Below, piece by piece: positions 21,121-52,943 of a stretch of 64,000 bases of DNA. Below the pieces are notes generated by a model. It was given only the letters and a program-made list of their open reading frames with translations, was not told the DNA's origin and searched no databases. Position 1 is the stretch's first letter. Each line of letters begins with the position of its first letter. Source of the stretch: Ischnura elegans (taxonomy: Eukaryota; Arthropoda; Insecta; Odonata; Coenagrionidae); the NCBI RefSeq assembly GCF_921293095.1, contig NC_060254.1, positions 806,001 to 870,000 of the forward strand, read 5' to 3'. The translations under genes were made by a program, and so were the position numbers.

Positions 21121-21250
21121 ATGGTGGACAAGAGCTTAACTGCTTTTCCGTCAGTTTTGAAAGACACAAGCAGAATGTGCGAGCAGATTGCGATAAAATT
21201 ACGCGATGCCAAGGCCAATTTAGAAATAGTCAGGAAAAACCAGAATATTG
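21121..21250 (+). CDS. Coiled-coil protein gene, exon 1
   Basis: Proposed first coding exon of a six-exon gene (21121-21250, 21360-21542, 23063-23109, 23472-23631, 47826-47962, 52824-52943) encoding about 258 residues. The ATG at 21121 has G at -3 and G at +4. It is the first ATG after an in-frame stop at 20989. The exon reads MVDKSLTAFPSVLKD and continues with charged helical sequence (CEQIAIKLRDAKANLEIVRK). It ends in phase 1 at ATT-G before GTATAG, a weak donor. Intron 1 is 109 bp. An X-box-like palindrome lies 185 bp upstream. I do not recognise the protein. Length and helical content resemble small ciliary, centrosomal or kinetochore coiled-coil proteins, but that is only a guess. Confidence 0.65.
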
Positions 21251-21359
21251 GTATAGAATTGAATGAAGGACATTGGTTTCTGATGTATTGACTTGAGGTC
21301 AATTTCCGGAATAGGATTACATTTATTTTAAACACTCGTATATTTTCTCTTTATCATAG

Positions 21360-21542
21360 AAAAAGTATATTTGAGGAAGATGGCTGTCAAGAAACTTCGT
21401 TCGGAGAGACGTCTATGCTGTTTAGAGGAACTGATTCTGATGCTGAAAAATGAATTAAGTGACCTTGATAAGGAAAAAAAGGTTCGAAACGTTGAGCTGA
21501 AGGAGGATATTTTCCATGAGTTGCATTTCCATCATCTGGGTA
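21360..21542 (+). CDS. Coiled-coil protein gene, exon 2
   Basis: Begins after TTTCTCTTTATCATAG, a good acceptor, and completes the split codon G|AA. The frame continues through VYLRKMAVKKLRSERR, CLEELILMLKNELSDLDKEKK and ELKEDIFHELHFHHLG, all rich in Leu, Glu and Lys with heptad-like spacing. Two donors 3 nt apart are possible: after 21542 (GTAAGA, stronger) or after 21539 (GTAGTA). Both leave phase 1, so they differ by one residue. Without splicing the frame stops 14 nt later at TAG. Intron 2 is about 1.5 kb and contains a small LINE remnant. Confidence 0.65.
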
Positions 21543-22129
21543 GTAAGATACTTTAGATAAGATACTCTAGATAAACCTTGGCCGCACATTGAGTACCAAC
21601 ATCTTCGTCTATACTGTTTTTGTAATCAAAGACCACAAAAAACAACCTCTGAACTCTACTTCAGACCAAAATATTACGTTCACCACTTATAAACCAACAA
21701 AATTGCACAGTATTCTTAAAAACTCCACTTTCATGGATCATATGGGAGCACAGCTTTATTCAATATCTTTACTTCTTAGTAATCTATGTTCAATGTCTGT
21801 GAGACTTACCACTAGTGGCTCACACAGAATATTCATTCATTCTATTTAGCAAAATGGGTTTTTGGGCCATAATACTACTTTTTTGCATGATGCTCTCATT
21901 ACTTGCTGGAATTGGAGGGATAGGTGACTGATTCATAATCTGTACATGGACATGTACATCTGGCCCAGACTGCTCAAGTGAGAGTAGCAAATGGAGATTA
22001 AGGGAGGACAGGTATTGGCCAAGATTTGAGATTAGTCTGTCCACTCTCACCTTTGCTTCATAATATGCATGCTGAGATGATGATAAAGGAGGCATGGGAT
22101 AAGTCGGAAGCAGGAGTTAATTAAGACAA

Positions 22130-22290
22130 AGTTGAGGGCCCTAAACTTGAATAGGTGGATCAGTTAAAATATTTTGGCAGCATAATAAAGGAAAACAGAT
22201 ACAGCAGTAAGGAATACAGGAAGTTCATAGCCATAGCAAAGGAGACGTTCAAAACAAGAAAGAGCACATGTGTGGAAAAAAGAAAACTTT
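22130..22290 (+). pseudogene. LINE reverse transcriptase fragment
   Basis: Short remnant within intron 2. The + strand reads VDQLKYFGSIIKENRYSSKEYRK followed by IAKETFKTRKST. This aligns by eye with the corresponding part of the remnant at 13547 (EQFNYLGSTIEENRNINKHQEE). It is a dead fragment of the same LINE family. Confidence 0.65.
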
Positions 22291-23062: not shown

Positions 23063-23109
23063 GATACAGAGGAAATGGAAAATATGCAGACCAATCATTA
23101 ATATCACAA
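23063..23109 (+). CDS. Coiled-coil protein gene, exon 3 (47 nt)
   Basis: Small exon between TTTTACTTTATCAAAG and a strong donor GTAAGA. It starts in phase 1 (GA completes the codon left by exon 2) and ends in phase 0. It encodes YRGNGKYADQSLISQ. It is supported because it alone supplies the phase change needed to connect exon 2 (phase 1) with exon 4 (phase 0). The acceptor tract is modest. Being short, it is one of the least certain exons. Confidence 0.5.
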
Positions 23110-23471: not shown

Positions 23472-23631
23472 GAGATCCTGCAAAAAATCAGCAGCATTAC
23501 TTGGAGTCAAAGCAAAGCAGATCTTATAGTAGCCTCTGAAAGAAAACTTTATGATGGTAAGGAAGAATTCAGTCAGAGTTTCATAACAGAGAATGAAGCG
23601 CAGGATTTAATTACCAGCAAGAATAGTACAA
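23472..23631 (+). CDS. Coiled-coil protein gene, exon 4
   Basis: A 160-nt exon entered through TACATCCTCAG and left through a near-perfect donor (ACAA|GTAAGT). It starts in phase 0 with EILQKISSITWSQSKADLI and continues KLYDGKEEFSQSFITENEAQ; all 53 codons are open. It ends in phase 1, matching the exon at 47826. Intron 4 that follows would be 24.2 kb, made largely of transposable elements. It is rich in Lys, Glu, Ser and Gln, consistent with the helical protein encoded by its neighbours. Confidence 0.6.
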
Positions 23632-23812
23632 GTAAGTTCGACTAATGTTTGTTAAGAAATTTGGATTGGGTTGATGTCATAACTTTACGCGAACCAGAAT
23701 ATGTTTGATTCATTCCTCTCCACTCCTGACTCTGCACCGAGAGAGATACACTTTCCTATAATAATTATCTTCCAATTAGGTATGTAAATGCCAATACATA
23801 CCTATATACAGG

Positions 23813-24680
23813 GTATGTTCTGAAAGTAAAGCAATTACTTTTTTTTTAAAGAAGTTGATTGAACAGATTTTTACAAACACTCAATTAAATTCTTTAAATC
23901 ACTGTCCTTGGACCAGTACACATTTTTCATAGCTACTCTGACATGACCAGTTCCAGCCCTGGAAGACTTCTTCAGGGATCCCTGGCAAGGTCTTTGTCAT
24001 GGGTGATTGGAACTCTTCTAAGGACAAAAAAATGGGTTAATTTCAAGGCTGCCTTTATCCGAGGGATCAGGGAGAAGTCTACTGGGGTGACTTCAGGACT
24101 ATAGGGGGGAAGGGCCAGCTTTTGAACCTGGTATTTGGGCAGGAAATTGCGGACTTGTAGTGTGTAGTTGAGATGAAGTAGCTAGGTAGCAGAGATGTCT
24201 TTTGTCATCCTGAGCCTTTTTTGGAATCTTTACAGCCCATTCCTAGTTGGATATAAGGGGCACGTGCCCCCCATACACTTACAAAATGGACAAGATTTTT
24301 AGTACAGTTATCATTACATTCATTTTGTTTTGTGTATTTTGGAGACTTAATCATGTAATTTCATATGAATAAGTTTCACATTAAAATACAGAAAAGATTT
24401 CATACAGTAATTGTGTATGTTGTTTTTAATCTCAAAAATGAGAAGATGGTTTGCCTGTCAGGCACCCCACCACCCCAGAAAAAAATCCTGCATCCGCCCT
24501 TGAGCCCATTCATGTAATAGGCAGCTTTAATTGTCTATCCTTAAGGACAAAAAATACTCATAGATCACTCCTTTACTGTCGAAAAAGACAATGAGCACTG
24601 ATTTCACTTTTGATTCGCTCGTACTAGCCTTTTTGGGTGAGAACCTCTTCCTGGCCCTCCTTTAAGGCCTTTAACCACCT
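23813..24680 (-). pseudogene. mariner-type transposase remnant
   Basis: The minus strand preserves two blocks of a mariner-family DD34D transposase: VLIVFFDSKGVIYEYF near 24570, containing an Asp of the catalytic triad, and SPEVTPVDFSLIPRIK near 24080, corresponding to the YSPDLAPCDFFLF region. Further downstream FQGWNWSCQSSYEKCV matches the usual C-terminal end. Stops and frame changes abound, and a hAT-like MITE (24243-24503) is inserted between the blocks. The 5' part beyond 24680 is less clear. Mariner transposases cut and paste at TA; this copy is inactive. Confidence 0.75.
24243..24503. mobile_element. hAT-like MITE with perfect 8-bp TSD
   Basis: A 261-bp non-coding insertion flanked by GCCCATTC on both sides (24235-24242 and 24504-24511), a perfect 8-bp target duplication typical of hAT elements. 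The left end reads CTAGTTGGATATAAGGGGC. The right end complement reads TCAAGGGCGGATGCAGGAT, a diverged form of the GGCGGAT-containing termini seen elsewhere in the window. It interrupts the mariner transposase, so it is younger. Confidence 0.8.
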
Positions 24681-24979
24681 CAACAGTAGTACATAGTAGG
24701 ACAGAAAAGTCTCTGGAAGCCTCATGAATCATTATGTTGGTCTCTTCAAGAAATCTTTTCAGTTCAGCACAACACTTAAACTTAGCTCGATCGTTCTGCC
24801 GCTTCCACAGCTTGGAGAGCACTAAGACTGGTTTTAAGACAAAGCTTAGAGTCCACCTCACCTACTTCAAGTTGTTTGATACCACTGCAACCAAAAGGAG
24901 CAGCGCAAGAAATTAAATTGCATTAATTTTGGAAAGTATCCATTATCCTTGTTGTAAAATGATTTCTGTTGCATGGTCT

Positions 24980-26426
24980 CAGTGGCGGATCCAGAATAGG
25001 GAAAAGGGGGGCTAGATGGTAGGCCTGGGGGGTAACCTCCCAGCAGTGCTAGGGGTCTGAACAAAATTACCATTTATCTAAACAGTTCCTCACCATCTAA
25101 GACATTTCTCTTCCCAACCGATCCATTCTATGTCAGCAAAGCCTTGAATACATTCTCTAACAAATGGTCTTCAGGATTAAAAAAAATCCCCATCCATATC
25201 TTGAAGGCAGTCAAAGATTATATGTACATATGACCCCCTAGCTCACATAATTAATGCTACCCTTGCTGAAGGTCATTTCCCTAACTACCTGAAATTAGCC
25301 TATGTTAACCCTATCCACAAAAAAGGTCCTCATGCTGACCCTAACAATTACCGGCCAATATCAGTGCCTCCTAGTCTTTCCAAAATTTTTCTCAATCGTC
25401 TCACAAACTTTCTTAAGTCATTCCACCTTTAAGACCAAGCCCAGCATGGCTTCTTAGCTGGGAAATCCACCACCATTACCACATTTCAGCTACTTAGCCA
25501 TATCCACAAGGCCCTTGATAGGGGAAATGCTACACTAAGGATCTTCTATGATCTTAGTAAGGCCTTTGATAGTGTCAATCATAAGATACTATTCTCCAAA
25601 CTCTCAAGGCTAGGGATTACGGGCAATGCCCTGCTTTGGATAAAATCTTTCCTCTCCAACTGGCAGCAGCAAGTAAAATATTGCTACCAATCAGACACTG
25701 GCACTAACATAACTCTATCTAAACCACTTCAAGTATGCCAAGGTGTCCCCCAAGGCTCAATACTTGGACCCCTGCTCTATATAATTTTTATAAATGACCC
25801 CTCCACATTCAATTTCAGCTGGTAAGGTACTTCTCTATGCTGATGATACCTCCAGTCTTTTAGTCAAAAAATTCAGCTGAACTAGGAGATATTTCCCAAA
25901 CCTCAATCTCAGATATGAGCTTCAAATTGGTGCAATACAAATGTACTCAACATTAACTCCCATAAATCTCTTCACCTGCAGTTCCACCACAAAAGGTACC
26001 CACCCACGTCCAGCTTCTTACTTTGTTTAAATGATAATATCCTCATCAGATCTCATTCTGTCAAGTTTCTTGGTCTAGTAATCAATGAAAACCTGGACTG
26101 GTCTGACCACATACAGAACACCATGCAAAAAAATCACTCTTGGAATCTTCCTAATTAGAAAACTAGCCCTAATTGTCACTCTGGACACCCTGGAACTCCT
26201 ATTTCACTCAAAAATCCAATCTCACATCTCATACACCATTTTATTCTGAGGAAATGACCTTTCCCAAAAGATATTTTCCTTCAAAAGCAGGCCATTAAGG
26301 CAATGCTTCGCCTCAAAGCTGTTTGCTATTATATATCACTTTTTTTCTCCCTTTGAGGATTTCTTATCATTATTATTATAAGTGGATACCAAAGGGGCCT
26401 CTAGCCTCTCTCTGGAACCACCACTG
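24980..26426. mobile_element. hAT-like non-autonomous element carrying a nested LINE
   Basis: Ends are CAGTGGCGGATCCAGA on the left and the complement of CAGTGGTGGTTCCAGAG on the right. Flanks are CATGGTCT (24972-24979) and CATGGTTT (26427-26434), an 8-bp target duplication with one mismatch. The left 110 bp also match, in inverted orientation, the MITE at 33769-34069 (shared GAACAAAATTACCATT and GGTAACCTC). Most of the interior is a LINE fragment (25083-26330), so the original MITE was a few hundred bp and was later expanded. Confidence 0.7.
25083..26330 (+). pseudogene. LINE reverse transcriptase pseudogene
   Basis: On the + strand, broken frames give NNYRPISVPPSLSKIF, then QHGFLAGKSTTITTFQLL, then RIFYDLSKAFDSVNH, GVPQGSILGPLLYIIFIND and a degraded ADD box, then VKFLGLVINENLDWSDHI. 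These are palm and thumb motifs of a jockey/CR1-like non-LTR polymerase in correct order. Several stop codons and frame changes are present, and EN and the 5' part are absent. It sits inside the hAT-like element at 24980-26426. Confidence 0.85.
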
Positions 26427-26439
26427 CATGGTTTTGAAA

Positions 26440-26570
26440 GCTCAAAATGTTTTCAAATTTTGCTTATGAGTATTGTGGCAATTTCTGTTCTTTAACAAAC
26501 ATAACAATAAGAGTTAATCACTTTAAAGACCTGGGAGTAATCTGTGATAACAGGTCATCATTGAACCCTT
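26440..26570 (+). pseudogene. Small LINE RT fragment
   Basis: The + strand reads NHFKDLGVICDNRSSLNPY, a typical post-palm LINE motif (DLGV-x-D-x-x-L-x-x-x-x-H). It stops at a TA microsatellite at 26571. The final 30 bp (26541-26570) reappear inverted at 27009-27038. Confidence 0.55.
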
Positions 26571-26589
26571 ATATATATATATATATACT

Positions 26590-26825
26590 ACTTCATTCAT
26601 TCACACGACGCCTTAAGCGCAAATATGCATATAAATTCACAGGTAAGGAAAGAAAGGGAAAGGAACATGGAATAGAAAAAGGACAAGGACAACGGTGCTG
26701 TGGTAGATGGAAAAAGCCAGAAATCAGAGGGTAAAAATGCGGCCTGGCTGGGACTCGAACCCAGAACCTCCTGGTTGCCGGCCAGGTGCTCTACCAGGAC
26801 GCTTAGATTTACCATGATTTCGGCG
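26590..26825 (-). mobile_element. tRNA-derived SINE with Ala-like anticodon arm
   Basis: Minus strand. The head has an A-box-like TGGTAGAGCACCTGG, an anticodon arm CCTGG-loop-CCAGG whose 7-nt loop places GGC at the anticodon (alanine-type), and a T arm CTGGGTTCGAGTCCCAG with a perfect B box. The acceptor stem does not close. After the head come the body and a TA-rich tail shared with 3752-3890. This is the best-preserved copy in the window and defines the family. Confidence 0.75.
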
Positions 26826-27008
26826 GGGGTTTATATACAGTAAACTCCCTTTGCTTTGGCCCACAAGAGTAACCAATAGATGGCACTGGGGCAGCTCACC
26901 ACTCACCAGCAGAAGGAATGGACGAGGACACAAGGATGAAAGGAAAGATACACACTCACACGATAGCAGGAAAGAGACAGGAACATGCGTTTCGGGGCAC
27001 ATATATAC

Positions 27009-27038
27009 AAGGATTCAATGATGACCTGTTATCACAGA
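27009..27038. repeat. Inverted copy of 26541-26570
   Basis: Thirty bases that are the reverse complement of 26541-26570 with one mismatch, both next to TA microsatellites. Together they bracket the SINE and about 180 bp beyond its head. This could reflect recombination or template switching between the TA tracts. Confidence 0.8.
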
Positions 27039-27383
27039 TATATATATATATCGGCGAGGTAAATAACATAAAAAACCCTAGGATAGGCAGTATCAGAACA
27101 CACAAGATTGTGACGTTACGTCGTAAATCTAGTTGATTGTTCACGTAAGCCCAGACAAGGGAAATACTCCAACCGTCGGTCACATGCTGGATCAGGGAAA
27201 AACTCCACAAACAAGAAAAACAGCTCACAAGAAAAAGGTAGCCAAAAATAATTTACAAGTTATTACCGTTCGATATCTATTCAAAATAGAGTATTCAAAA
27301 ATCAGAAGTATTACAGAAAACAATGATAGTAATTCATGATCCCAGAGGAAACATTACCAGCTAAATACCAGCAGAATAATTGC

Positions 27384-27880
27384 TCAAAATTTGCCATGTC
27401 TCACTAGACATGTGTCTCCGACCAGCCCACGAGCAGAAGAGAGATTGCCTATGCAAGGCGAGACAGGATTTGAGGGGAGGGATTCTTCCAGGGAGTGGAG
27501 GGGTAGCCAGGCGAATTCAACTACTGCCCACTGATGCGTCACTGCCCCTGCAGAAACGGCCGCTCCGCAAAACACCATTCCCTGGTTTTGAGACAACAGC
27601 ATACCAGCCAGAATTTTCCCCTCAACTTCTGGGTTGGAGACATCAGTTGAATCAGAGGGATATTCATTGGAACACATGGAGGGGAAGGAGATACTGGGGT
27701 GAGGTGTTGGAGGGAGAGAGAGTTGTGATAGGACAATGGTAAAACTTCTCCCTCCAAGTGCAATACTAAAGCCTTAGCACCGATTTCCCCTTGCTTGCCA
27801 AGGAGTAAGTATTTCTCCGCAGTAGTCCTATATAAGTCTTGCATTGCAGGTAGGTTGGTTCGGGGTTGTTTCGGGGCTGT
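27384..27880. other. No gene recognised
   Basis: Overlapping open frames of about 100 codons occur on both strands, but they are mutually incompatible and show no known domain. This is likely transposon-derived sequence next to the Penelope-like element. Confidence 0.4.
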
Positions 27881-28050
27881 TTCAGAGGCTGATTCCAGAG
27901 GCAGAGTTTCCAGAGGCAGGGTTTACAGAGACAGGATTTTCCAGAGACAGGATTTTGCAGAGACAGGATTTTGCTACAGGGTCCTTTTGCGCGAAAAATC
28001 CTTTGCGCGAAAAAACCTTAGCGCGAAAAGTTCTTGGCGGGAGAAGTTCT
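27881..28050. repeat. Two short tandem repeat arrays
   Basis: 27881-27975 is an array of about five imperfect units around CCAGAGACAGGATTTT, period 18-20 bp. It is followed at 27985-28050 by three or four units around TTGCGCGAAAAATCC, period 16-17 bp. They adjoin each other and the 3' side of the Penelope-like element. Confidence 0.75.
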
Positions 28051-28378
28051 GCGGATAAGTTCGGAGGAAGTTCGAGGAATTTCTGGGGGGGGTACCAGAA
28101 ATTTTTGGGGGGGGCAACACTTAAAAAATGCCACAAGATAAAGGTTAGAAACTCACACTCACTAAATTTTCGGTGGCATTACCACCTTCCTCGGAGTTAG
28201 GTAAAAGACTGTAGGTAGAGGGTAAAGGATAGCTGAGGGAAGGGGAAATAGAGGGGAGGTAGGGTCCAAAGAGGGGGGGAAAAGAAGTGGGTTGAGGCAA
28301 TTAAGGGATTAGCGGTGGATGTTTAAGCCGGGAGGAATAAATGCTTTGAATAGCCAAATGTAACTTAATTCAATAGAA

Positions 28379-29860
28379 TTAAGTTTGAGTGGGTGGTCTG
28401 TGGGGGGAAGGGAGGCTAAAACAAACATTGTAGCAATCATTGAATTGACGCTGATGAGTGGCCGCATGTTTCGCCGCCGGGAAGGACGCAAAGTCAGAGG
28501 AAGTGCATGATGCTCTGTGGTTATTGATTCTAAGGTTAAGGGGAGTTGAGGATTTGCCTATATAAAAGGAGGGACAGTGCTTGCATTGAATAAGGTAAAC
28601 TACATTTTTTGAAGTACAGGAGGCCGCAGGAGGTGGTGGTAGGTAGGAGACGAGATGACTGGGGATAGAAGGAGGGGTAAAAATTGGGCAGGTCTTACAT
28701 CTAGGACAACCGCAGGGCGAAGGTGTGCTAATGGGAGTAGTGGGTGACTTCTGTAAGGGGTTAGTTGAGCGGAATAAATTTAAAAGGTTTGCAGGTCGTC
28801 TGAATGTGACAGTAGGGGGTTTGGCAAAAAGATTGGCTGTCGACTTATTGTTTTTTAGAATAGGGAAGAGGTCTTTAAGGATAGATTGCAGGGATTGTAT
28901 TCCAGGAAAGTAAGTGGTGCAGAGGGAAAGGTCTTGTGGTTTGTTTCTATTGCACGGTTCTGGGGGGCATTTGTGTTTGAGAATTTTTTTACGTAGGAGG
29001 GACTCTGGGTAGCCTCTCTGGAGGAGGGAACGGTGAAGGTTGTGAAGAAAATTATTTAAGGCATCAGGATTATTACAGATACGGTGGCCTCGAATGGAAA
29101 GGGAATAGGGAAGGGAGCGTTTAGTGTGGGAAGGATGACAACTGCTGAAATGAAGGTACTGCTGCTTATTCGTGGGTTTTACATGGACAGAGGTGAGAAA
29201 TTTGTTGTTGACAAGAGAGATATTGACATCAAGGAAGGTAATCTGGGAATTAGAAATGGCTGAGGTGAAAGAAAGAGAGGATGAGGAATTGAGAGTAGCA
29301 ATAAAATTTTCGAGGGAATCATTACCATGTGGCCATAGGAGGAATATGTCATCAATAAATCTGAGCCAAAGGAGGGGTTTCAATGGATATTGGGAAAGGA
29401 AAATTTGTTCAAAGTGGCCTAGGTAGAGGTTTGCATAGGAGGGACTGAATCTACTACCCATTGAGCAACCTTTGATCTGTAAATAATGCTTATTATTAAA
29501 TGAGAACGAATTGTGCGTTAGGACGATATTAGTTAGGTCTAAGAGGAAGTCGGTGCTAGGGGTATGAGGAGTTGGGCGTTGGGAAAGGAAGTGGCGGAGG
29601 GAGGAAAGACCTTCAGAATGAGGAATTGATGTGTAGAGAGAAGTGACATCTATGGTGGCCATGGCAATTTGGGTGTCAGGAGGAATTTGGGTGGATTGGA
29701 GACGGTCTAGGAAGTTATATGTGTCTTTGATATGGGATGGTAGAGACAAAACTAGTGGTTGGAGGTAATAGTCAATGAAAGCGGATATTCTTTCCGTGGG
29801 TGAGTTGCAAGATGAGACAATAGGACGGCCAGGGTGGTTGGGTTTATGTATTTTTGGCAA
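28379..29860 (-). CDS. Penelope-like RT core and GIY-YIG endonuclease
   Basis: An open frame of 493 codons. From the N side it has PKIHKPNHPGRPIVSS, then ATIDVTSLYTSIPH (first catalytic Asp), KGCSMGSRFSPSYANLYLG, and LRFIDDIFLLWPHG (catalytic Asp pair). Then come a Cys-rich linker CGCPRCKTC and a GIY-YIG endonuclease (VVYLIQCKHCPSFYIGKS, then LRINNHRASC). This RT-linker-EN order defines Penelope-like elements. The frame stays open upstream of its nominal start, so the 5' boundary is a frameshift and not a true initiation codon. All catalytic motifs seen are intact. Confidence 0.85.
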   Translation of the reverse strand: MPKIHKPNHPGRPIVSSCNSPTERISAFIDYYLQPLVLSLPSHIKDTYNFLDRLQSTQIPPDTQIAMATIDVTSLYTSIPHSEGLSSLRHFLSQRPTPHTPSTDFLLDLTNIVLTHNSFSFNNKHYLQIKGCSMGSRFSPSYANLYLGHFEQIFLSQYPLKPLLWLRFIDDIFLLWPHGNDSLENFIATLNSSSSLSFTSAISNSQITFLDVNISLVNNKFLTSVHVKPTNKQQYLHFSSCHPSHTKRSLPYSLSIRGHRICNNPDALNNFLHNLHRSLLQRGYPESLLRKKILKHKCPPEPCNRNKPQDLSLCTTYFPGIQSLQSILKDLFPILKNNKSTANLFAKPPTVTFRRPANLLNLFRSTNPLQKSPTTPISTPSPCGCPRCKTCPIFTPPSIPSHLVSYLPPPPAASCTSKNVVYLIQCKHCPSFYIGKSSTPLNLRINNHRASCTSSDFASFPAAKHAATHQRQFNDCYNVCFSLPSPHRPPTQT

Positions 29861-29879
29861 AATGTAAAAATGTGGAGTA

Positions 29880-30769
29880 TGTGGGTTTGGGGGGAAAGGA
29901 TGGAGATGTCAGACGAAGAGAAGCCTTCCGGTGGGGCATGTTCCTTGAGAAAAGACTTGATATTTTCTTGGAAGGTGGGGTTAGGGTCATGAGGCATGAG
30001 TGTGTATGAGGAGGTATCAGTCAGTTGTCTTTCAGCTTCCTTAATGTAATCAGAAGTGTTCAGGAGAACTACTGTGGATCCTTTGTCAGCTGAGGTTATG
30101 ACTATACATATCAGGATTGTGGATGAGTTTTCAGAGGGCAATGTTCTCCGATTGAGAAAGGTTGGGTTTGGGCTGAAGAGATTTTAGGAAAGAATGGTTG
30201 CAGACTTTTGAAAGCAGCAGATCTATAAAAATTTCAATTGGGTGGCCGGTTGGGAGAGGTTTAGGTTCATGGGTCGAGGATGGTCGAAACCTGGAAAGGG
30301 CACTATGGGGAGGAATTGGAGTATTAAGTTCTTTCTGTGTATCCCAAAAGGCTTTCCACCTTAGATTTCTGCAAAATTGCATAATATCTGTGACTAAGGG
30401 GACATGGCGCACTTTAGGGGTGGGAGAGAAGGAAAGGCCTTTGCTGAGGAGGGAAAGTTCTTTGTTTAAGGAGGCAGATGATAGATTGATCACTGGGATG
30501 TTTTCATTTTGACACTCAAGCTCATGGCTTTGGGAGGGGGGGCGTCGAAATTGTTCTCTCTCTGGCAGTCGTCTCGGTGGAGACCAAAGTTGCTGTGGAG
30601 GTGGCGGAGGAAGATTAAATAGGGTGGCTAAATCAGGTCTGTAGAGATGTAGAGGAGGTGGGGAGGGAATGACCACAGCTTTATTGAAAGGTAAAGACAA
30701 CCCGACTTGAAAATGAGACGCACAAAGGGAGGAGAGCTTTCTTAGGGATTTAGTTCGGCGGAGTTCCAA
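29880..30769 (-). pseudogene. Penelope-like N-terminal part, frameshifted
   Basis: Two overlapping frames continue the element upstream. 30131-30769 encodes a Pro-rich start and a helical segment ending LLLSKVCNHSFLKSLQPKPNLSQSE. 29752-30141 encodes TSADKGSTVVLLNTSDYIKEAERQL, the conserved start of the Penelope RT. A frame change near 30135 separates them. A second, near a run of six Gs on the + strand at about 29889-29894, separates the latter from the RT core. The G-run shift could be a sequencing error. Confidence 0.75.
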
Positions 30770-30784
30770 TGAGCGGCGGGATGC

Positions 30785-31126
30785 ATGGAGTATTTCATTT
30801 ATATTGCATTAGGTATTTTCCCCATTGGACTTCATGTGAAATACCCTCTCTCTGACCTCCCTCCACACCTACGGCCATTCCTTCATGCTTTTTCCTTCCA
30901 ACAATCATTTCTTCTTTGTTGTTTTATTCGTGATCAATATGATGTGTTAACTAAAACACTCCATAATTCTATCAAAAATTTAATTAATAATATTTCTGTG
31001 ACAGCACCACATCTACTCAATAATATAAATAAGACTAATTGTAAGTGCCCAACTCTGTTCACATTTGTATCCTTTGGAGCTCCAACAGTTACATATGTAC
31101 ATCATAATTCTCAGTACCATTTTTAA
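30785..31126 (+). other. Unassigned 113-codon open frame
   Basis: An ATG-initiated open frame on the opposite strand to the Penelope-like element, starting at that element's 5' border. It begins with a hydrophobic stretch (FIYIALGIFPIGLH) and has no domain I recognise. It could be chance, given the AT-rich context. I do not assign a function. Confidence 0.2.
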
Positions 31127-31201
31127 GGAACAACTATACTTTTTTCTTAACAATATTCTATGATCTGAGAGAAAACAATGCAAATAATATCATATTGTAG
31201 G

Positions 31202-31341
31202 CAAGGTCAGATCGACAATTTTTTCTGGGGGGGCAATAACACAAAATGACAAATATAAATAAAAACAAATGTAATGACAATGGGACCATATATTTTAAGC
31301 ATCTGGGGGGGAGGTCACGTGCCCCCCTAAATCCGCCTGTG
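31202..31341. mobile_element. Short hAT-like MITE, decayed
   Basis: A 140-bp insertion with G-run/C-run ends: CAAGGTCAGATCG on the left and the complement of CACAGGCGGATTTAGGGGG on the right. Candidate 8-bp flanks are ATTGTAGG and ATTGTCAG, which match at six positions. It resembles the other hAT-type MITEs in the window but is older or less certain. Confidence 0.5.
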
Positions 31342-31429
31342 ATTGTCAGTACATCTCAATGACTTTATGCCATTATTTTAAGTAGCTGTTTTGGCTTATT
31401 TCCGCATTTCCTGATTTCTACTGGTTAAT

Positions 31430-31530
31430 AAACATTATTATTATTATTAAGAGCAAAGGAGCACAGTGGGTATAACATTGGGCAGCTAATCTAAGGGCCC
31501 CAGATTCAAACCAGGGTGAGTCAGTCAAAT
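31430..31530 (+). mobile_element. ATT-tailed LINE end and tRNA-like segment
   Basis: An ATTATTATTATTA tract near 31434 ends a + strand sequence in the way LINE 3' ends do here. It is followed by a tRNA-like stretch, AGTGGGTATAAC (A-box-like) and AGATTCAAACC (B-box-like). The tRNA-like piece is interrupted by the TIR element that starts at 31532. Confidence 0.4.
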
Positions 31531-32189
31531 ACCCTACAAACACAAAAAAGATCAAATCTGTATTTTAGGGAGATTTCATAATACATCAAATCTAGATTTC
31601 CAAATCCTTTTTAAATACGGATTAAATCTGTTTCCGAAGGTTCTGCGCCACTAGCGGCGCTAGCGTCGATGACGTGATTTTGCAAAATGGCCGAAACATT
31701 AGTGATGAACTGTGAAAGTGTGTTTTGTTATTGTTACTAAATGACTGGTTTTGACCGACACGAGCTGCATATGGTTTATTTGCTCCATTATCTGTTATAT
31801 TTTTCCTTAATATCCATCGATTGCATAAGTATCGTATTTGCACCTCACAGTAACCTGGATCTTCCGTATGTAGTGAACTTTATCATTCAATATACATGCA
31901 TAGTTTTTTTAAACCATATTCCATTACGTTGGTGCACATTTATCTATTACGTTGGTTCATTATGAGCTTCATTTTATGACTGTATCGTAATGTTTCAATT
32001 TGTAAAGTGCCTCTGAAAATAGTAACGAGGGATGGTCTTGTCAACAAAAACGACGACGAGGAGAAATATTTCGTTTCCCAATGTTATTCGGTGGGCTTAT
32101 TGAACCCTGAAGTCTGAACTCCGTTTCCATAATTCCCTTCAGATTCCTTCTTTTGAACCTGGTTTCTCCATTAACTTTTTTCTTACTAA

Positions 32190-32560: not shown

Positions 32561-32689
32561 TATCCACCTGCCACTTTTCTATGTAGTATATTGTGTTTAT
32601 CTTTCCTCCCTTTCTGGCTGTGGCAGGCCAGTGCAAGGGGCAGGAGGAGGCAAATGATGCTCAACATCAATTAGATTCATAGTAATTTG

Positions 32690-34272: not shown

Positions 34273-34336
34273 TTCATAACTTTTCTTTCTCTTCCATTAA
34301 CTGAATTATTTCAATAAATTACAATTCAGTGTCCAA

Positions 34337-43739: not shown

Positions 43740-43865
43740 TTAATCAAAACTATCTTACGAAACAATAGCGTTAGTTCAGGAAAACTTCTGGCAAACCGCT
43801 GGTGTTGCACGCTGTCAACAGTTCGCCCGCTCTGTGCCTCCACTGTGGTCTCATGTCAAAACATC

Positions 43866-46800
43866 AATAGCAGTAGTAGTAACCTTTATTTGCCCAGCGG
43901 ACACTGAACACAGTAAAAAATACATGAGTTGAGTGTATAGGACACGTCATATACATATAAATGTTGCAGACAATAATAAAATAAAATACACAAGTGTATG
44001 GCACCATAATTTGACCAAAAGAAGTTCATAAAGTACATAAAATTTATTCCATATTCAATATGATTATTTTTTCCCCAAAAATTCCTTTACGGAATAAAAC
44101 TGTTCTTTCCTTAAAAACGTTATTAATTTCCTTTTGAACAGGACTGGGTCCATTTCGTACTTAAAATCAGTAGGGAGCCTGTTCAGCACAAGAAGGCCCA
44201 TGGATTTAGGCCCCAAGGATGCATTTAAAGTCCTGCAATATGTTTGATGCAGATCTCTACAGGCTCTAGTTTGGTGGGAATGAACATTGTCATTAGACAT
44301 ATAATTAAATAAATTTCTTTTAGCAAACATGCTTATAACATAAATGTAAATGCATGGAACTGTCAAAATATTTAACCTTTTGAAAAAGGAAAGACAAGGT
44401 GCATTAAAAGGAGCATTACATATTAATCGTATTATACATTTTTGAGCTTTGAAAATTGAATCAGAATGGGTGGAAGAACCCCAGAACAGAATACTATAGA
44501 TAATTAAAGAATAAAATTCTCCGTAATAAATTGAGAGTAAAATATCAAGGCTTACAGTTTTCCTGATACTTCTGATAAGGAAGCAAATAGAGTTCAACCT
44601 GTTACGAAGATTGCATATATGTTCGTCCCATGACACATTTTTATTTAAAACAACTCCCAGAAACTTGGAACTAGAAATCTGGGGTATGCGTGATCCCCCT
44701 AGATCAATGGTCAATAAAGCAGGGGGTTTATTTTTATTGGAAAAGTATATAAGTCCAGACTTGTCAGGATTGAGTTTCAAAAGATTTTGTGTACACCATT
44801 CACACAGGAGTTCAGAAACTCTAGATGCCCTCAAGGACAAATTGTTTAACGATGGTGCTGATACAATTACATTAGTATCATCAGCATATAAAATTGGCTC
44901 AACTCCTTGAACCGTCTGCAAAATTTTTGGCAGATCATTAATGTAAAGTAAAAATAGGATAGGGCCCAGGACTGAGCCTTGGGGTACGCCTAATGTAACT
45001 TCTTTACTGGGAGAAATAAAATTAGTGCCATTCTTTGATAAAATAACCTGTTGATGCCTCGCACTGAGGTAAGATTTTATCCAGTTATAAGGGATACCTC
45101 GAATACCATAGTGTCCTAATTTGGACAAGAGTAACTGATGATTGACTAGGTCAAAAGCCTTGGAAAAATCAAAAAATAGCCCCAAGGTTTCGATTCTGTT
45201 ATCAAGATTTGAAAGTATTAAATTTACCAAATGATAGGTGGCTGTAGATGTAGATCTGCATTTCCTAAAACCATTCTGTGAGCCAGACAAAAGGTTGGAA
45301 AATTCAAGAAATGATACAAGTCGATTATGGAAGACCTTTTCAAATAGTTTCCCTATCTGATTTAGTAAGGATATTGGACGATAAGAATTCATATCCTGTT
45401 CGCTACCTTTGCCTTTATATAGTGGTACAACTTTGGCAGATTTAATGGCATCAGGAAAAACTCCAAGTTGTAAGGATTTGTTCATTAAAAAAAGTATATG
45501 TTCCTTGATAGAATTAGCTGATTTTTTTATCACAATGCCTGGGATGCCATCTATACCAGGACTACTTTTGTTAGGAATTTTTTTAATGATGTTCATCAGT
45601 TCCAATTCAGAGCAAGGGAACAGGTACAAAGAATTAGGCAGGCTTGGGTTTAAAGAATGATTGACAGGAATTGAAGTATTTGTAGTAGTCTGGTGGGACA
45701 AATAAAACTCATTTAAGTTAGATGCCATTTGAAAATAGTCAGAAATAATATTACCAGTGGAGTCCAGTAATTTGAAATCATGATGATCATTAATAGAACT
45801 CTTAGCTTCCTTTATGATCTTCCAAATTTCTTTAGATTTATTATCGGGATTAAGAATTCTACAGTTGTTAAATGTTTTCTTAGCCAATTGTAACTTTTGA
45901 CGGTACATTTTTTTTAATGTTCTATACTCCATGCAATCAACTGAGTTATATTTATTTTTATAGGAAATAGCTAGTTCCTTCATTTTCCGAGAGAGGTATC
46001 GTATTTCGTCAGTAACCCAATGGTTTCTATTACTTAAATACAAGTTTCTAGTTTTTTGGGAGACCAGGGGAAAACAAATGTCAAAATAATACTGATATAA
46101 AGAATAAAAATACTCAAATGAGTCATTATAGGATCTGAGTTGATATAAATTAGACCAATCATGGGCCTTCAACATATTATTAAAGATATTAAAGTTTTGC
46201 TCTGTAAACTGCCTTTTATAAATTTTCTTACAATAACTAGGAGATAAGATTAAAATCTTGCATAACAGAGGATAATGATCAGAAATGTGGGACTTAATTA
46301 CTTCAGTATTTACATTTCCCAAGCCAATGTTCGTTAAAATATTATCTGTAATAGTAGAAGAATGGCCATTTACCCTAGTCGGTTCTGCATTAGTAACACA
46401 AATATTATAAGAAGTAAGGATAGCTAAGAATTCCTGTTTAGCTTTGGAATTACTTGAGAAATCACAATTAAAGTCCCCAGTTATAATTAAATTAGGTTTT
46501 GGTATAGCATCATGAATTAACTCTAATAGTTTAGCAAGTTTGTTAAGGAAAACATTAAAATCACTCGATGGTGAACGATAAATAGATAATAAATGATATT
46601 CAACATTGTTTACCCTGAGACCCACTATACAGGACTCAAAGGACAACTCTTCATTGAGAAAATCCTGTGAAAAGCAGGTCGGGAAAAAGCATACACACTG
46701 TGAAACTAAAACTAATACGCCTCCGTTTCTATGCTTCGTCCGGCAAAATACATCAGCGATGGAATAACCAGGTAGATTTAAAAATTTCAAATCACTTAAT

Positions 46801-47000
46801 TTCAACCAGTGTTCGTTGATACAAATCACATGAGGTTTATGTTCACACATCAGGACCTCAAGATCCAGAAACTTGTTACTCAAACATTGTATATTAATGT
46901 GCAGGATCTTGAGGAACCTCGCTACCCTATCGGTGCTGTCGGGCGTGCCCTCCAAAAAGAATAATTTCCGACGTGCACATATTTGGGCCAAAATGAAGGC
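43866..47000 (-). mobile_element. LINE (jockey/CR1-like), 5'-truncated
   Basis: Minus-strand non-LTR retrotransposon with an uninterrupted EN-RT frame (44064-46991) and about 200 bp of 3' untranslated sequence. It ends with AATAAAGGTTACTACTACT on the minus strand. No ORF1 is found upstream, and the EN-RT frame has no in-frame ATG before the EN domain, so the copy looks 5'-truncated near 47000. Two relatives of the same orientation lie at 13040 and 18385. It is inserted about 120 bp from piggyBac element B. Confidence 0.8.
44064..46991 (-). CDS. LINE endonuclease-reverse transcriptase, intact frame
   Basis: A frame of about 975 codons without stops. The apurinic-like endonuclease (roughly residues 28-245) shows LKILHINIQCLSNKF, ITGDFNCDF (near 168) and SDHYPLL (near 236). 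The RT shows KVVPLYKGKGSEQDMNSYRP, QNGFRKCRSTSTA, FFDFSKAFDLVNH, LGVPQGSVLGPILFLLYIND (near 668) and YADD (near 702), then KFLGVVLNKNVSWDEHI. All expected catalytic residues are present. The first in-frame ATG lies inside the EN domain, so the native start is lost or lay upstream. An open frame of this length implies recent insertion. It is a mobile-element gene and not a host gene. Confidence 0.9.
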   Translation of the reverse strand: MAQICARRKLFFLEGTPDSTDRVARFLKILHINIQCLSNKFLDLEVLMCEHKPHVICINEHWLKLSDLKFLNLPGYSIADVFCRTKHRNGGVLVLVSQCVCFFPTCFSQDFLNEELSFESCIVGLRVNNVEYHLLSIYRSPSSDFNVFLNKLAKLLELIHDAIPKPNLIITGDFNCDFSSNSKAKQEFLAILTSYNICVTNAEPTRVNGHSSTITDNILTNIGLGNVNTEVIKSHISDHYPLLCKILILSPSYCKKIYKRQFTEQNFNIFNNMLKAHDWSNLYQLRSYNDSFEYFYSLYQYYFDICFPLVSQKTRNLYLSNRNHWVTDEIRYLSRKMKELAISYKNKYNSVDCMEYRTLKKMYRQKLQLAKKTFNNCRILNPDNKSKEIWKIIKEAKSSINDHHDFKLLDSTGNIISDYFQMASNLNEFYLSHQTTTNTSIPVNHSLNPSLPNSLYLFPCSELELMNIIKKIPNKSSPGIDGIPGIVIKKSANSIKEHILFLMNKSLQLGVFPDAIKSAKVVPLYKGKGSEQDMNSYRPISLLNQIGKLFEKVFHNRLVSFLEFSNLLSGSQNGFRKCRSTSTATYHLVNLILSNLDNRIETLGLFFDFSKAFDLVNHQLLLSKLGHYGIRGIPYNWIKSYLSARHQQVILSKNGTNFISPSKEVTLGVPQGSVLGPILFLLYINDLPKILQTVQGVEPILYADDTNVIVSAPSLNNLSLRASRVSELLCEWCTQNLLKLNPDKSGLIYFSNKNKPPALLTIDLGGSRIPQISSSKFLGVVLNKNVSWDEHICNLRNRLNSICFLIRSIRKTVSLDILLSIYYGEFYSLIIYSILFWGSSTHSDSIFKAQKCIIRLICNAPFNAPCLSFFKRLNILTVPCIYIYVISMFAKRNLFNYMSNDNVHSHQTRACRDLHQTYCRTLNASLGPKSMGLLVLNRLPTDFKYEMDPVLFKRKLITFLRKEQFYSVKEFLGKK

Positions 47001-47825
47001 TTTATAAGCGTTTCCCGTAACTCACTATTCACTGAGATGTGGAAAGAGGCATGGTTGAGGCATCAATGAATGTAGAACCTCACCTGATTCAAGCTGCAAG
47101 ATTATGATCAAGAAGAAGATATTTTGGAATCGACTAAAGGAGTAATTCCAGCTAAATACTGCTGCTAACTAACAAGTGACTGATTCACAATCACTCACAC
47201 TTGTGAGCCATTGAGGCTGGTATGTAGCCAGAAATTTCCTTCAGGAGGAGATTGGGTAGTAGGCGGCTTACCTATACATACTGTCATTTTGTTGTCAATT
47301 CGAATGCATCGGAAAACCATACATTTCATTAAATCAGCTACGTAAGTATTTCATTTGCATTACGCTGAAATACAAAATCATTGTAAGTAATTAACAAAAA
47401 TAATGAAATGTAACTACATATAGTGAAAAATGAATTGTCAGAGGCTTGATTTTCCTGGACTAGTGGTCTCCTCTGCAGATGTATCATGGGTAGCTGCCAT
47501 AAGGCAAAACATTTCAGGAAGGCCAGAAGCCCCTAAAGCTTCATCATGCCAGCGTTGAGGGCAAACCACTGAGGATAAAGACAGCACTCAATGGCTCTGA
47601 GGACCTGTGTCGCAAAAAGCCGCACAGGTCACAGAGAGCTTACGAGCCAAGTGGGTTGAATGTTTTGCTATTCATGAAAAGGATGGGCTCAAATCCAGGG
47701 TAAAGCAGCTTAAAACCTGAAGAAGGTTAAAAAAAAAACCTGACATCAATTTCCGTGGGCCATCTTGGCCATCAATAGTCTGGTTTGATGTACTAACTCA
47801 ATTTGATTTGTTATCCTTCAAATAG

Positions 47826-47962
47826 GCAATGGCAAAGAAGAAAAATCAAAGTTAAATGAGAAAAAGACAACTCTGGAAGAGGAACTAAATGAAATCAATT
47901 CCAAAATAACAAAAACAGCAAGTGATATCTTAAGTATTGAACAAGAAAATAGAGTTTTGCAG
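47826..47962 (+). CDS. Coiled-coil protein gene, exon 5
   Basis: A 137-nt exon with textbook signals: branch-point TACTAAC at 47791-47797, acceptor TTATCCTTCAAATAG, donor CAG|GTAGGT. It enters in phase 1, matching exon 4, and ends in phase 0, matching exon 6. It encodes NGKEEKSKLNEKKTTLEEEL, then NEINSKITKTASDILSIEQ and ENRVLQ, a strong heptad-repeat coiled coil. The preceding 24.2 kb intron is almost all transposon. This exon and exon 6 are the best supported of the gene. Confidence 0.8.
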
Positions 47963-49374: not shown

Positions 49375-51590
49375 AATATGACATTGGAATGCAGTCGTTG
49401 GAGAGAGGAGTGGATGCAGTAGGAGAGTTTAGACTGGGAAAAAGGAAGGAAAGAGGAGAAAGGTTAGAAAAGTTATGCAATGAGAAGCATTTAGTGGAAG
49501 CACACACCCTCTTTGTGCAACATTGACGAAAAAGATATGTGTACTCGGAAATTGCTTGGTGACAGAGGCAGAAACTAGATTGACAACAGTCTGGTAAGAC
49601 ACAGGTACAAGAGCATTGTGCTTCCATTGACAATAAGCTGGAAATGCTAAAGAGAGATGGAATAGCATCAAGATACCATCACAGAGGTAGCAACTTGGGA
49701 GTAGGACGGTAGAAACCAAGAAAACATGGATTAATGATCACATCATTGCTTGCATAGAAGAAATTGGAAGTACAAGAATACAAGGAATGAAAATAATGGA
49801 AGACCCTTCAAGAGTTTGAGGAATCAAGTCATCTGAGACTCCAAAAAAGGCCAAAGAGAAACAGATTGAAAGCTACTGCGAGAACATCAACTAAAACATG
49901 ATGAAGAGGAACTCCGAAATGGCATACAACCAAATCAAGAAAAAATTCAGAGGCAAGAAATCAAGATGTAATAACATTAGATTCCAATAGAAAACTGCTG
50001 ATGAGAGAGAGGCAATGGGGATAGAAAGAAACAGTTATTGTTAAACAGTTACAGTTAAACTATACCAAGACCTCATACCCCTCAAAGAAGCAGTCCCATA
50101 TGACCAAGAGGAGGAAGACAAATGTTCTCCAGGAATACAAACAAGAGAATTTGAGAGAGCCATTAGAGACTTAAAGAATGGAAAAGGACCAAGATAAGAT
50201 AAAACAAGCAGAGAAATAATCACAGCAATAAATGAGAAATTGCGACATACACTATAAGTACTAATTCAAGACAAACCCGGAAAGCTGCCAGAGGACTTCA
50301 AGAGGAGCACAATGGTGACCATAGTGAAAAAGGCAAGGGCTGAAAAATGTGAGGAGCACCTAACCCTGAGCCTATACATCACATGCCTCCAAAATCCTCA
50401 CTAGGATAATAGGAAGACCACTCAAAGGCATTAATATGGATGAAAATTTCTCAGAAAACCCATTTGGACTGGAAAAATAGAGGAACAAGGGAGTCAATAC
50501 AATGTCTAAGACTACTGATTAAGAAAATGGACCATGAAAGAAAGTCATTGAATATAGCCTAAGTGGACTTAGAAAAGACATTCAATAATGTTGAATGGAA
50601 TAAGATGTTCAATATGATGGAGAAACATGGACTAGACTACCATGACAGAAGAATCATCTACCAGCTCTACAGGGTCTAGGTGACAAATAAAGGCAAACTA
50701 AAGGAAAGAATTCTTTAAATTTAAATATAGGGGCAAAAATTAACGAAGGAGTCCAGCAAGAATATAACCTATCACCAACGCCTAGATGGAGGTGAATGGA
50801 GAAGAATTAATATGATTTGCAGATGACATTACAATCATCGCAGGCAACGAGGAAGGCCCACTGGACTTGATGACCAAAACTGAAACGAGTTTTAGGAATA
50901 CAACATGAAAATAAATAGGAAGAAAACCAAGTTCCTTGTAAATGGAAAGAGAGAAAATTTTGGCCCATATCCTACTCAATGGAGAAAGATGGGAGCAAGA
51001 GGAGTAATTCAGAGTAATATGTTGAGAGCACCACTCCGTGGGCTGTTTGGCATTTAATGGCACAACAGACATCATCAGTCCCTAAACCAGTGCTCATTGC
51101 AAATACTGCTACTATGCTTGAAGAGCATAACACTATAGTACTAGTTAAGACCAGGAAAGAGAACATAAAAACATCCATGTGGGTAGAGGCACTATATGGT
51201 TCAGAAGCTTTGAACATTGGAAGAAGTGATTGGAAAAAAATAGAGGCCATCGAGACCTGGTACTGGAGTAGAATGTTGATGATAAAATGGATGGATAGGG
51301 TGAGTAATGAGGAGGTGCATTTATAGAAGAACAGAGGAAGAAAGGACACAGGATCACTGTAGGCCTAAGGAGAACACGGTGGATAGGCCTTACATTGAGA
51401 GACAGAAGTCAGTTGGGGAACCTAATGGAAGGAAAAATTGATGGAAAAGTCCCCAGAGGAAGACTAACGGACAAGTACTTACGACATATCAAGAATATGA
51501 GGGGAGAAGAGACTCAGGGATGTAAAAGAACAAGCTTCAGATAGGGAAAAATGGAGGGCTAAGGTATACCATTCATAGGACTGCAATGTG
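49375..51590 (+). pseudogene. LINE EN-RT pseudogene
   Basis: A + strand decayed non-LTR element. The endonuclease part (about 49385-49720) reads NAVVGEREVDAVGEF, GLGKRKERGERLEKLC-like and TLFVQH. A linker follows with KKTWINDHI. The RT has FNNVEWNKMFNMMEKHGLDY, YQLYR and IRFADDITIIAGN near 50810. The tail reads VEALYGSEALNIGRSDWKKIE and RMLMIKWMDRVSNEEV (51180-51330). Many stops and frame changes are present. It belongs to the same family as the fragments at 13483 and 22130 and lies in intron 5. Confidence 0.85.
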
Positions 51591-51998
51591 TGCAATGTAA
51601 GCATGTGATATTTCTTGATATATGCAAAACACCAACAATGGATTTAACTTCAGTACTGTGCTAACAAAATAGATAGCTTATTAAGTGAAAATTATGGTGA
51701 GTGCAAATTAACAACAAAATCTAAGTAGGGGTAATCTCCATACACCATGCAAGAGGCCCTGGCTACATGCCTGACAGCTGAAACTTCAAAACTACACTTC
51801 AAAACTCTTCAGTGAGCATGGCCAATGAAGGGTGCACTCAAAATGTGTAAATATTTATGTATTGCTCCCACAGGAAGCTGACATGTCCATTGTCCTCTGC
51901 AACCTTTGCCCAGTCTCAGTTTGATGAAGGGCCCTCCACCACTTCACTTTTGGATGCGGCAAAAAGAGGAGAAAGTAGGGGAACTGAGTGTTCACAGC

Positions 51999-52274
51999 CA
52001 GTGGCGCCGACTCCATGGGGCCTGAGGGGGCCCGAGCCCCCTCAAAAATTTGTTATGGGTGTGAGGAAAAAATGTGTCAGACTTTTTGATTTTCCCCATA
52101 GTGTCCAGATATTTAGATTCGAGTTATCAGGGTTTTAATGTTGATCTTCTAAAATACTTAAAAAACTTTAAACTCACTACTTATAAAATTTTCTGGGGCA
52201 AGATTTGCAGAAACCAAAATTTAAAAAAATTTGGTTTGGGCCCCCCCAATATTTTTTGTAAGTCGGCATCCCTG
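51999..52274. mobile_element. hAT-like MITE (GCCGACT ends)
   Basis: A 276-bp element with ends CAGTGGCGCCGACT and the complement of CAGGGATGCCGACT, and C/G runs just inside. Flanks TTCACAGC and TTTGCAGC match at six of eight positions. It is a third terminal-sequence class of hAT-like MITE in the window and lies in intron 5. Confidence 0.65.
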
Positions 52275-52823
52275 TTTGCAGCCAAGTAGCATTATTTGCA
52301 GAAAAGTTTCTTGGGTTTTCCACCGGTTGATGTCGTCCAAGATATAATATTGAGACAATCCATTTACCACCTCCAAAGCTCAGGGTTTCTTTGAGATCGA
52401 AATCTTTCCTTATTATCTGGGAGAACCAGCAAAATTATTGCGTTCACTAAACGAGTTTATGCAGATTAGTTGCAAATACAAGGGCTATATTTCTCATGGA
52501 TGAATTAGCCTCAAGTTTATTTCATAATTGGTTTGTGGCCAATACACCACAACCATACACATGGGAGGATAGATTTTTGCTCACTTTGTTTTACTTTTGT
52601 AAATTTTTCAATTAATTTGTTGGGTTAATGCAAAATTATTGTAATCTTAACTTCCATTAACACTTCAAGTGTTTTCTCCCCTCTGATTGCCAATCTGCTT
52701 GTGGAAAATATCCAATAAAGCTTTTTATAAAGCTGCCAGCTTTTTCCGGTAAATGTCAGAAAATGTCTCCTACAATCTTGTAACAACAACATCAATAATC
52801 ATGTCTTGATGTTCCTTTCTTAG

Positions 52824-52943
52824 AAACGCAATTCAGCCCTCCTACTGAGACTTCAGAAACAACTCAAAGAAACAGAAACTAGAAGGAACTTGGTTGCAGC
52901 TTCCTTGGAGACAATAAAGCATGATAATGGAACATCATTGTGA
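52824..52943 (+). CDS. Coiled-coil protein gene, terminal exon 6
   Basis: Entered through GATGTTCCTTTCTTAG, a strong acceptor, in phase 0. It encodes KRNSALLLRLQKQLKETETR, then RNLVAASLETIKHDNGTSL and a TGA stop at 52941-52943. Joined to exon 5 it continues the heptad pattern of the coiled coil without a break. A variant poly(A) signal ATTAAA lies near 53028. Intron 5 is 4.86 kb and contains a LINE and two MITEs. I do not recognise the protein family. Confidence 0.8.
   Translation, partial: KRNSALLLRLQKQLKETETRRNLVAASLETIKHDNGTSL

Follow-up and report, generated by a model that had tools for sequence, protein, structure and literature searches.

Six open segments with splice signals are dispersed over the forward strand of a 64,000-nt stretch of chromosome 9 of the damselfly Ischnura elegans, called the window here. 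Do these segments belong to one spliced gene, and if so, what might its protein do? An earlier note proposed a host gene that escapes detection when ORFs are scanned singly. The segments probably represent one real spliced protein-coding gene of about 258 residues, possibly driven by an RFX factor and with a ciliary or flagellar role. The proposal of an overlooked host gene is supported by a retrocopy for the join of exons 1 and 2, by the single-copy exons and by the codon score of exon 5. The gene may already figure in the public annotation of the assembly.

Exons, splice borders and the predicted long intron

The AG and GT borders claimed for the six exons were all present, and the cumulative phases were 1, 1, 0, 1, 0, so that the six-segment structure given in the earlier note was confirmed by the border and phase check. 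Joining of the exons in Table 1, which span 31.8 kb, resulted in 777 nt, corresponding to 258 codons followed by TGA, with no internal stops. Stops were present in the other two frames across the exon joins.

Table 1. Positions of the predicted gene, its upstream elements and its retrocopy (window coordinates unless a chromosome is given)
Feature	Position	Strand	Remarks
CpG-rich stretch	20401..21200	+	CpG o/e 1.3-1.5 vs window median 0.52
X-box (RFX site) GTTACCATGGTAAC	20923..20936	+	Perfect palindrome, exact match
5' untranslated stretch	21040..21120	+	Present in retrocopy
Exon 1	21121..21250	+	Coding from ATG; once in genome, plus retrocopy
Intron 1	21251..21359	+	109 nt; missing from retrocopy
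Exon 2	21360..21542	+	Retrocopy reaches as far as 21424
Exon 3 (candidate)	23063..23109	+	47 nt; weakest exon; would provide phase change 1 to 0
Exon 4 (candidate)	23472..23631	+	Evidence: borders, splice score, codon score
Intron 4 (candidate)	23632..47825	+	24,194 nt; transposon-rich
Exon 5 (candidate)	47826..47962	+	Coiled coil starts; evidence: borders, splice and codon score
Exon 6 (candidate)	52824..52943	+	Coiled coil ends; TGA stop
Retrocopy	C4:46129382-46129649		5'UTR, exon 1 and part of exon 2; intron 1 cleanly missing

A crude consensus score was used to rank the splice borders among all AG sites (acceptors) or GT sites (donors) of the window. Seven of the ten borders were found within the top 5.5% of these sites, namely the acceptors of exons 2, 4, 5 and 6 and the donors of exons 3, 4 and 5. 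The acceptor of exon 3 was middling, as 12.6% of the AG sites in the window score equally high. Poor scores were obtained for the donors of exon 2 (GTA/GTAAGA, 44.0%) and exon 1 (TTG/GTATAG, 75.7%), yet the latter is confirmed by the intronless retrocopy described below. Exon 2 ends in a tandem donor, three bases apart, which makes the end of this exon uncertain by one codon and leaves the phase unaffected.

A codon score trained on CSN4 was applied to the 102 candidate internal exons, taken from either strand, that have good splice sites. Only 13 candidates outscored exon 5 and all 13 were inside CSN4, making exon 5 the best-scoring candidate outside CSN4. Exon 4 ranked 19th of the 102, sixth outside CSN4. 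Compared with the other open segments of the window that have splice borders, exon 5 is thus conspicuous, and exon 4 less distinctly so. Absolute codon scores were low, with 0.0 per codon for exon 4 and -0.04, below background, for exon 3.

The description of intron 4 as filled with transposons was borne out in part. Transposon-protein ORFs with Pfam support occupy 5,028 nt of its 24,194 nt, and a 1.5 kb sample of the intron contains two stretches, each about 230-250 nt long, that are present at many genomic locations. The domains of the ORFs were assigned from Pfam, and the elements are presumably Penelope-like, piggyBac-like and LINE-type. A 24 kb intron with transposon ORFs resembles the transposon-enlarged introns of other large insect genomes, and nothing unusual was seen here. 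Most likely the gene is otherwise ordinary, with most of its length in this transposon-rich intron. A multi-exon gene spanning such an intron would thereby be recoverable from raw sequence.

Retrocopy on chromosome 4

A DNA search with the exons was performed over the 1.72 Gb genome, very common words being skipped. Each exon was found once, apart from one copy on chromosome 4, which argues that the exons are unlike repeats. A match of the segments to repeats had been named in the earlier note as grounds for rejecting the gene; in this search, which also bears on a transposon-derived origin of the segments, every exon had a single genomic place besides the retrocopy.

The chromosome 4 copy is 82% identical to the gene (228 of 277 columns), and none of the 12-mers of intron 1 was found in it. 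Its differences from the gene are evenly spread over the three codon positions (9/65, 11/64 and 10/64) and the untranslated stretch (9/74), which points to a processed copy evolving neutrally rather than to a second gene. The lack of intron 1, the retained 5'UTR and the even decay over codon positions are features shared with processed pseudogenes; the copy differs from these in ending inside exon 2, with no poly(A) end seen. From the decayed processed copy it follows that the gene was transcribed and that intron 1 was spliced out. The splicing of intron 1 is thus shown without RNA, and the retrocopy constitutes RNA-free proof for one intron of the gene. The strong support claimed earlier for the join of exons 1 and 2 was in this way substantiated. 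Since the retrocopy starts at 21040, the transcript start lies there or upstream.

Introns 2-5 lie beyond the coverage of the retrocopy, and a second retrocopy covering exons 3-6 was not found in the same search of the genome. Judged from splice sites, phase and codon bias, introns 2-5 would also be removed; exon 3 and the link over the 24 kb of intron 4 are predicted.

Coiled coil and alternatives to the gene model

The C-terminal coiled coil proposed for the joined protein was borne out by heptad scoring. The best score of residues 172-250 was reached by 6 of 1000 shuffles, compared to 23 of 1000 for the whole joined protein and 206 of 1000 for residues 1-104. The HMM search suggested in the earlier note was run with the joined protein and two parts of it, and identified no Pfam family above its curated cut-off. 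The best match was TBCA_PH (E 0.0019, 18.4 bits vs a cut-off of 27.8), all others being weaker. No significant relative was found among PDB sequences, where the best match was a Rad50 coiled coil (E 0.032), or for the joined protein among viral contigs and phages, or for exons 1-2 alone among bacterial and archaeal genome contigs. CCDC172 is a coiled-coil protein of 258 aa linked to tektin. It is like the predicted protein in length and coiled-coil nature and differs from it in lacking sequence similarity; with the CCDC172 sequence that was used, the best BLASTP E was 0.64 and the alignment score was reached by 117 of 300 shuffles, and this identity was rejected.

It is very improbable that the six segments are a chance chain. 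Many segments were available and the choice among them was free, but the splicing of intron 1 is attested by the retrocopy, exon 5 is the top candidate outside CSN4 and the coiled coil appears in the joined frame. A misjoining of two neighbouring genes over the 24 kb interval, with exons 1-4 (or 1-2) belonging to the first gene and exons 5-6 to the second, is unlikely. Transposon ORFs lie within the interval, coverage by the retrocopy stops part-way through exon 2, and the join over intron 4 is drawn from phase and splice sites only; against misjoining, exon 4 has a near-consensus donor (CAA/GTAAGT) in phase 1 and the acceptor of exon 5 is in the matching phase.

There is a somewhat greater, though still low, probability that the gene is real with details differing from those in Table 1, in that exon 3 is replaced or skipped, the end of exon 2 lies 3 nt further upstream at its tandem donor, or additional exons exist. 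The shortness of exon 3, its middling acceptor and its codon score under background favour such differences, as does a further candidate exon at 33717-33836 inside intron 4; this candidate is phase-compatible between exons 4 and 5 (entry 1, exit 1), though it overlaps an inverted repeat arm at 33806-33931. Speaking for exon 3, its donor (CAA/GTAAGA) is among the best 5.1% of GT sites, and when it is left out of the join, stops arise in exon 4. The earlier statement that this 47-nt exon supplies the required phase change was accordingly upheld. The single six-exon gene is the preferred reading.

Upstream X-box and possible ciliary function

The X-box GTTACCATGGTAAC ends 184 nt before the ATG, inside the CpG-rich stretch. 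It is the sole exact match in the window, where 0.0009 are expected; genome-wide, the exact X-box occurs at 31 places in 1.72 Gb, compared to 6 for the backwards control. Of these 31, the flanks of 15 were compared, and four shared flanking sequence; these four may be parts of a longer element. In CpG richness, the 5' end of the gene is equalled by other stretches of the window. Upstream of the CpG peak, no divergent gene was recognised by eye in the stop-to-stop ORF list, and one RT-like ORF piece among those present there gave no family in a homology search. The CpG peak, the X-box and the retrocopy went unmentioned in the earlier note.

PMC2375033 lists in its Table 2 16 Drosophila genes with a conserved X-box and down-regulation in the dRfx mutant; in 11 of the 16, the distance of the X-box to the D. 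melanogaster ATG is 60-141 nt. Palindromic sites are over-represented according to this source, and some D. pseudoobscura sites are at distances of up to 239. The present gene resembles those dRFX targets in having a palindromic X-box less than 200 nt from the ATG; its 184 nt exceed the range of the 11 D. melanogaster genes and are within some of the D. pseudoobscura distances. For C. elegans, X-boxes 100-250 bp before the coding sequence are described in PMC2873420. Unlike insect RFX-regulated ciliary genes, the gene described here matched no ciliary family, and its RFX-dependent expression is a prediction from the X-box.

A non-ciliary coiled-coil protein, with an X-box that is coincidental or serves another RFX-dependent programme, is a reading of considerable but lesser probability. 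It is favoured by the lack of a family match for the joined protein and by the common flanks of the four exact X-boxes. According to PMC2375033, RFX-dependent expression cannot be predicted from an X-box upstream of a single gene if the most degenerate consensus is applied, and a single site is thus weak evidence. Furthermore, no X-box of the tested consensus was found at three of four tektin loci or at IFT57, in stretches that may omit the first coding exons. The IFT20 family search gave no match here or in 14 control genomes and was hence uninformative for X-box grammar. Against a non-ciliary role, the X-box is an exact palindrome near the ATG that is hardly expected by chance in the window, and one tektin gene in the same genome shows a like arrangement, with an X-box GTTACCATGGCTAC 129 nt before its ATG.

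A ciliary or flagellar role of the coiled-coil protein is suggested, with less certainty than the gene itself. Transcription of the six exons and removal of the introns would yield the protein of about 258 residues with its C-terminal coiled coil, and a transcript lacking intron 1 was copied back into chromosome 4. Binding of an RFX factor to the upstream X-box, as predicted, would switch the gene on in cells that assemble cilia or the flagella of sperm; there, the coiled-coil protein may have a structural or adaptor function. It is a speculative and rather improbable extension that the protein is a new ciliary component, i.e. an axonemal, basal-body or sperm-tail coiled-coil protein of Odonata without recognisable relatives outside the lineage. 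If the RFX reading is true, the locus contributes a candidate to the ciliary or sperm genes of damselflies.

Gene model and coding signal

The six segments of the gene were found at the positions claimed in an earlier note, and direct check of the window sequence confirmed the AG/GT borders and the phases of 1, 1, 0, 1 and 0. The joined length was 777 nt, corresponding to 258 codons (about 258 had been predicted) plus TGA, with no internal stops; stops were present in the alternative frames of the exon joins. Splice borders were scored with a crude consensus and ranked against all AG or GT sites of the window. Seven of the ten borders, namely the acceptors of exons 2, 4, 5 and 6 and the donors of exons 3, 4 and 5, fell within the best 0.5-5.4% of these sites. 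The acceptor of exon 3 was middling (12.6% among AG sites), and the donors of exons 1 and 2 were weak, with 75.7% and 44.0% of the window GT sites scoring as high.

Features of the six-exon locus and of its intron 4
Feature	Position	Strand	Basis
X-box GTTACCATGGTAAC, perfect palindrome	184 nt upstream of ATG, within CpG-rich stretch		exact motif match
Exon 1	21121-21250	plus	gene model
Exon 2	21360-21542	plus	gene model
Exon 3	23063-23109	plus	gene model
Exon 4	23472-23631	plus	gene model
Reverse transcriptase with GIY-YIG domain	28379-29860	minus	Pfam
DDE_Tnp_1_7 transposase	42287-42904	minus	Pfam
Endonuclease-reverse transcriptase	44064-46991	minus	Pfam
Exon 5	47826-47962	plus	gene model
Exon 6	52824-52943	plus	gene model

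Open segments on either strand counted as candidate internal exons when they were 90-350 nt long, with scores of at least 10 for the acceptor and at least 7 for the donor (n=102, the terminal exon 6 lying outside this set). They were scored by the codon usage of the CSN4 gene of the window, a training set of about 420 codons, so small that the result is a ranking and not a probability. Thirteen candidates, all within CSN4, outranked exon 5, and exon 4 was 19th of the 102 and sixth outside CSN4. Per-codon scores of exons 1 to 6 were 0.09, 0.08, -0.04, 0.00, 0.04 and 0.07, low in absolute terms; the CSN4 rows gave 0.02 to 0.18. Exon 3 does supply the phase change required, as proposed; its codon score was below background, and its main support is the strong donor together with that phase change. 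Out of 1000 shuffles, 23 reached the best heptad score of the whole joined protein; for residues 172-250 the count was 6, and for residues 1-104 it was 206.

Two plus strand candidates within intron 4 were among the best 25 of the 102. With 26910-27058 (also from 26913) inserted, the phase no longer fits exon 5. The segment 33717-33836 is phase-compatible between exons 4 and 5 and is a possible extra exon at this place; it extends into an inverted-repeat arm.

No family was found at the Pfam cut-off with the joined protein, a profile check that had been suggested earlier, and a PDB sequence search gave no significant match. CCDC172 has the same length; no similarity to it was detected, and it was rejected as the identity. 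Neither the joined protein against viral contigs and phages nor exons 1-2 against bacterial and archaeal contigs gave a relative, as expected for an animal gene.

Retrocopy on chromosome 4 and copy number

The genome searched comprised 1,722,721,009 bases in 110 contigs, and the window corresponds to C9:806001-870000 in it. A protein search with E up to 10 returned 11 rows, six of them at the gene's own locus. One matched chromosome 4 (C4:46129545-46129655, E 2.7e-5), and the remaining four, with E values of 3 to 7.4, were taken for chance. At the DNA level the chromosome 4 locus was 82% identical (228/277 columns) over a stretch running from 21040 in the 5'UTR through exon 1 to 21424 in exon 2. 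The exon 1/exon 2 junction lay at the predicted border, and no 12-mers of intron 1 were found in the locus. Differences were even across codon positions (9/65, 11/64 and 10/64) and UTR (9/74), frame-shifting gaps were present and the ATG was lost. Judged from its sequence, the locus looks like a neutral processed retrocopy. For such a copy to arise, the gene must have produced a germ-line transcript that began no later than 21040 and from which intron 1 had been spliced out.

When the complete coding sequence was searched against the genome at the nucleotide level, by a method that skips very common words, the seven rows obtained were one for each of the six exons and one for the chromosome 4 copy. 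The segments thus do not look like repeats, an origin that would have spoken against the gene. Taken together, the reading of the locus as an ordinary host gene is supported; splicing is proven for intron 1, and we infer it for introns 2-5.

Directly after the retrocopy, at 1606-2000 of the locus (L007), decayed sequence resembled copia-type RNase H by eye; a Pfam scan of this stretch returned no family. Template switching into a retroelement may account for it. A dispersed repeat was common to L007:353-705 and window positions 13775-14159 (76% identity).

Intron 4 and other features of the window

Intron 4 measured 24,194 nt. Its description as transposon-filled is borne out in part, and transposon-rich is shown: the Pfam-supported transposon ORFs total 5,028 nt, about a fifth of the intron, and within 1.5 kb sampled from it (35001-36500) two stretches, at sample positions 2-248 and 865-1098, recurred at many genome places, with at least 41 match rows outside the window (40 of 987 candidates scored). 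We take the element at 28379-29860 to be Penelope-like and that at 42287-42904 to be piggyBac-like.

A perfect inverted repeat at 33806-34272 had arms of 126 nt, 100% complementary, and a 215-nt loop including a run of 25 C. It is either a hairpin or MITE-like element or an assembly artefact. Repeats of 20 nt of the TTCAATTGAAT type adjoined it (34316-34430) and also occurred at 20047-20296. Two tRNA-like matches, 3753-4016 and 26623-26800 (minus strand), each adjoined one arm of a 118-nt inverted repeat (88%) and are probably tRNA-derived SINEs, not tRNA genes. CSN4 (COP9 signalosome subunit 4; 58212-59546, plus strand) consisted of a single unbroken open frame, over 400 codons long and preceded by CpG-rich sequence at 57401-58200; it is an intronless gene or functional retrogene.

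Promoter and X-box

The CpG observed/expected ratio was 1.3-1.5 at 20401-21200, compared to a window median of 0.52, and dropped to 0.07-0.15 at 21601-22200 within the gene. Other stretches of the window, e.g. 1401-2400 and 7201-7600, were equally CpG-rich. The X-box lies 103 nt upstream of the retrocopy 5' end and was the sole exact match in the window, with 0.0009 expected under a first-order model. Genome-wide the 14-mer occurred at 31 places, compared to 6 for a backwards control.

In Table 2 of a Drosophila study (PMC2375033), 11 of 16 genes with a conserved X-box that were down-regulated in the dRfx mutant had the site 60-141 nt upstream of the D. melanogaster ATG, whereas the distance in the damselfly gene is 184 nt. 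The same study describes palindromic sites as over-represented, and warns that a lone X-box identified with the most degenerate consensus is not predictive of RFX control. C. elegans X-boxes are described as often lying 100-250 bp upstream of the coding sequence (PMC2873420). Membership of the gene among RFX-driven ciliary genes is plausible but unproven.

Upstream stretches of four tektin loci and IFT57 were inspected. GTTACCATGGCTAC ended 129 nt before the ATG of the tektin gene on C5; the tested consensus was absent from the stretches of the three remaining tektin loci and of IFT57, outside which the first coding exons may lie. The background was 4 consensus sites in 103.8 kb flanking the 30 other exact X-boxes, and the support from this genome for the X-box reading is suggestive only. 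Near flanks were inspected for 15 of these 30, and four loci (L017, L029, L030 and L031) shared flanking sequence, being A-rich before the X-box around position 1501 and ending in TGCAT after it. Since their flanks are alike, these four may be parts of one longer element that they have in common, and not of individual promoters.

At C8:28.79-29.40 Mb, tektin exon matches at 28984014 and 29394917 had identical scores and the same profile range (268-345). Both lay downstream of a tektin gene without another match for that range, which suggests a duplicated exon or gene piece. CFAP20 domain matches on opposite strands at C2:48795176-48802931 suggest that two genes with this domain lie in head-to-head orientation less than 8 kb apart in all.
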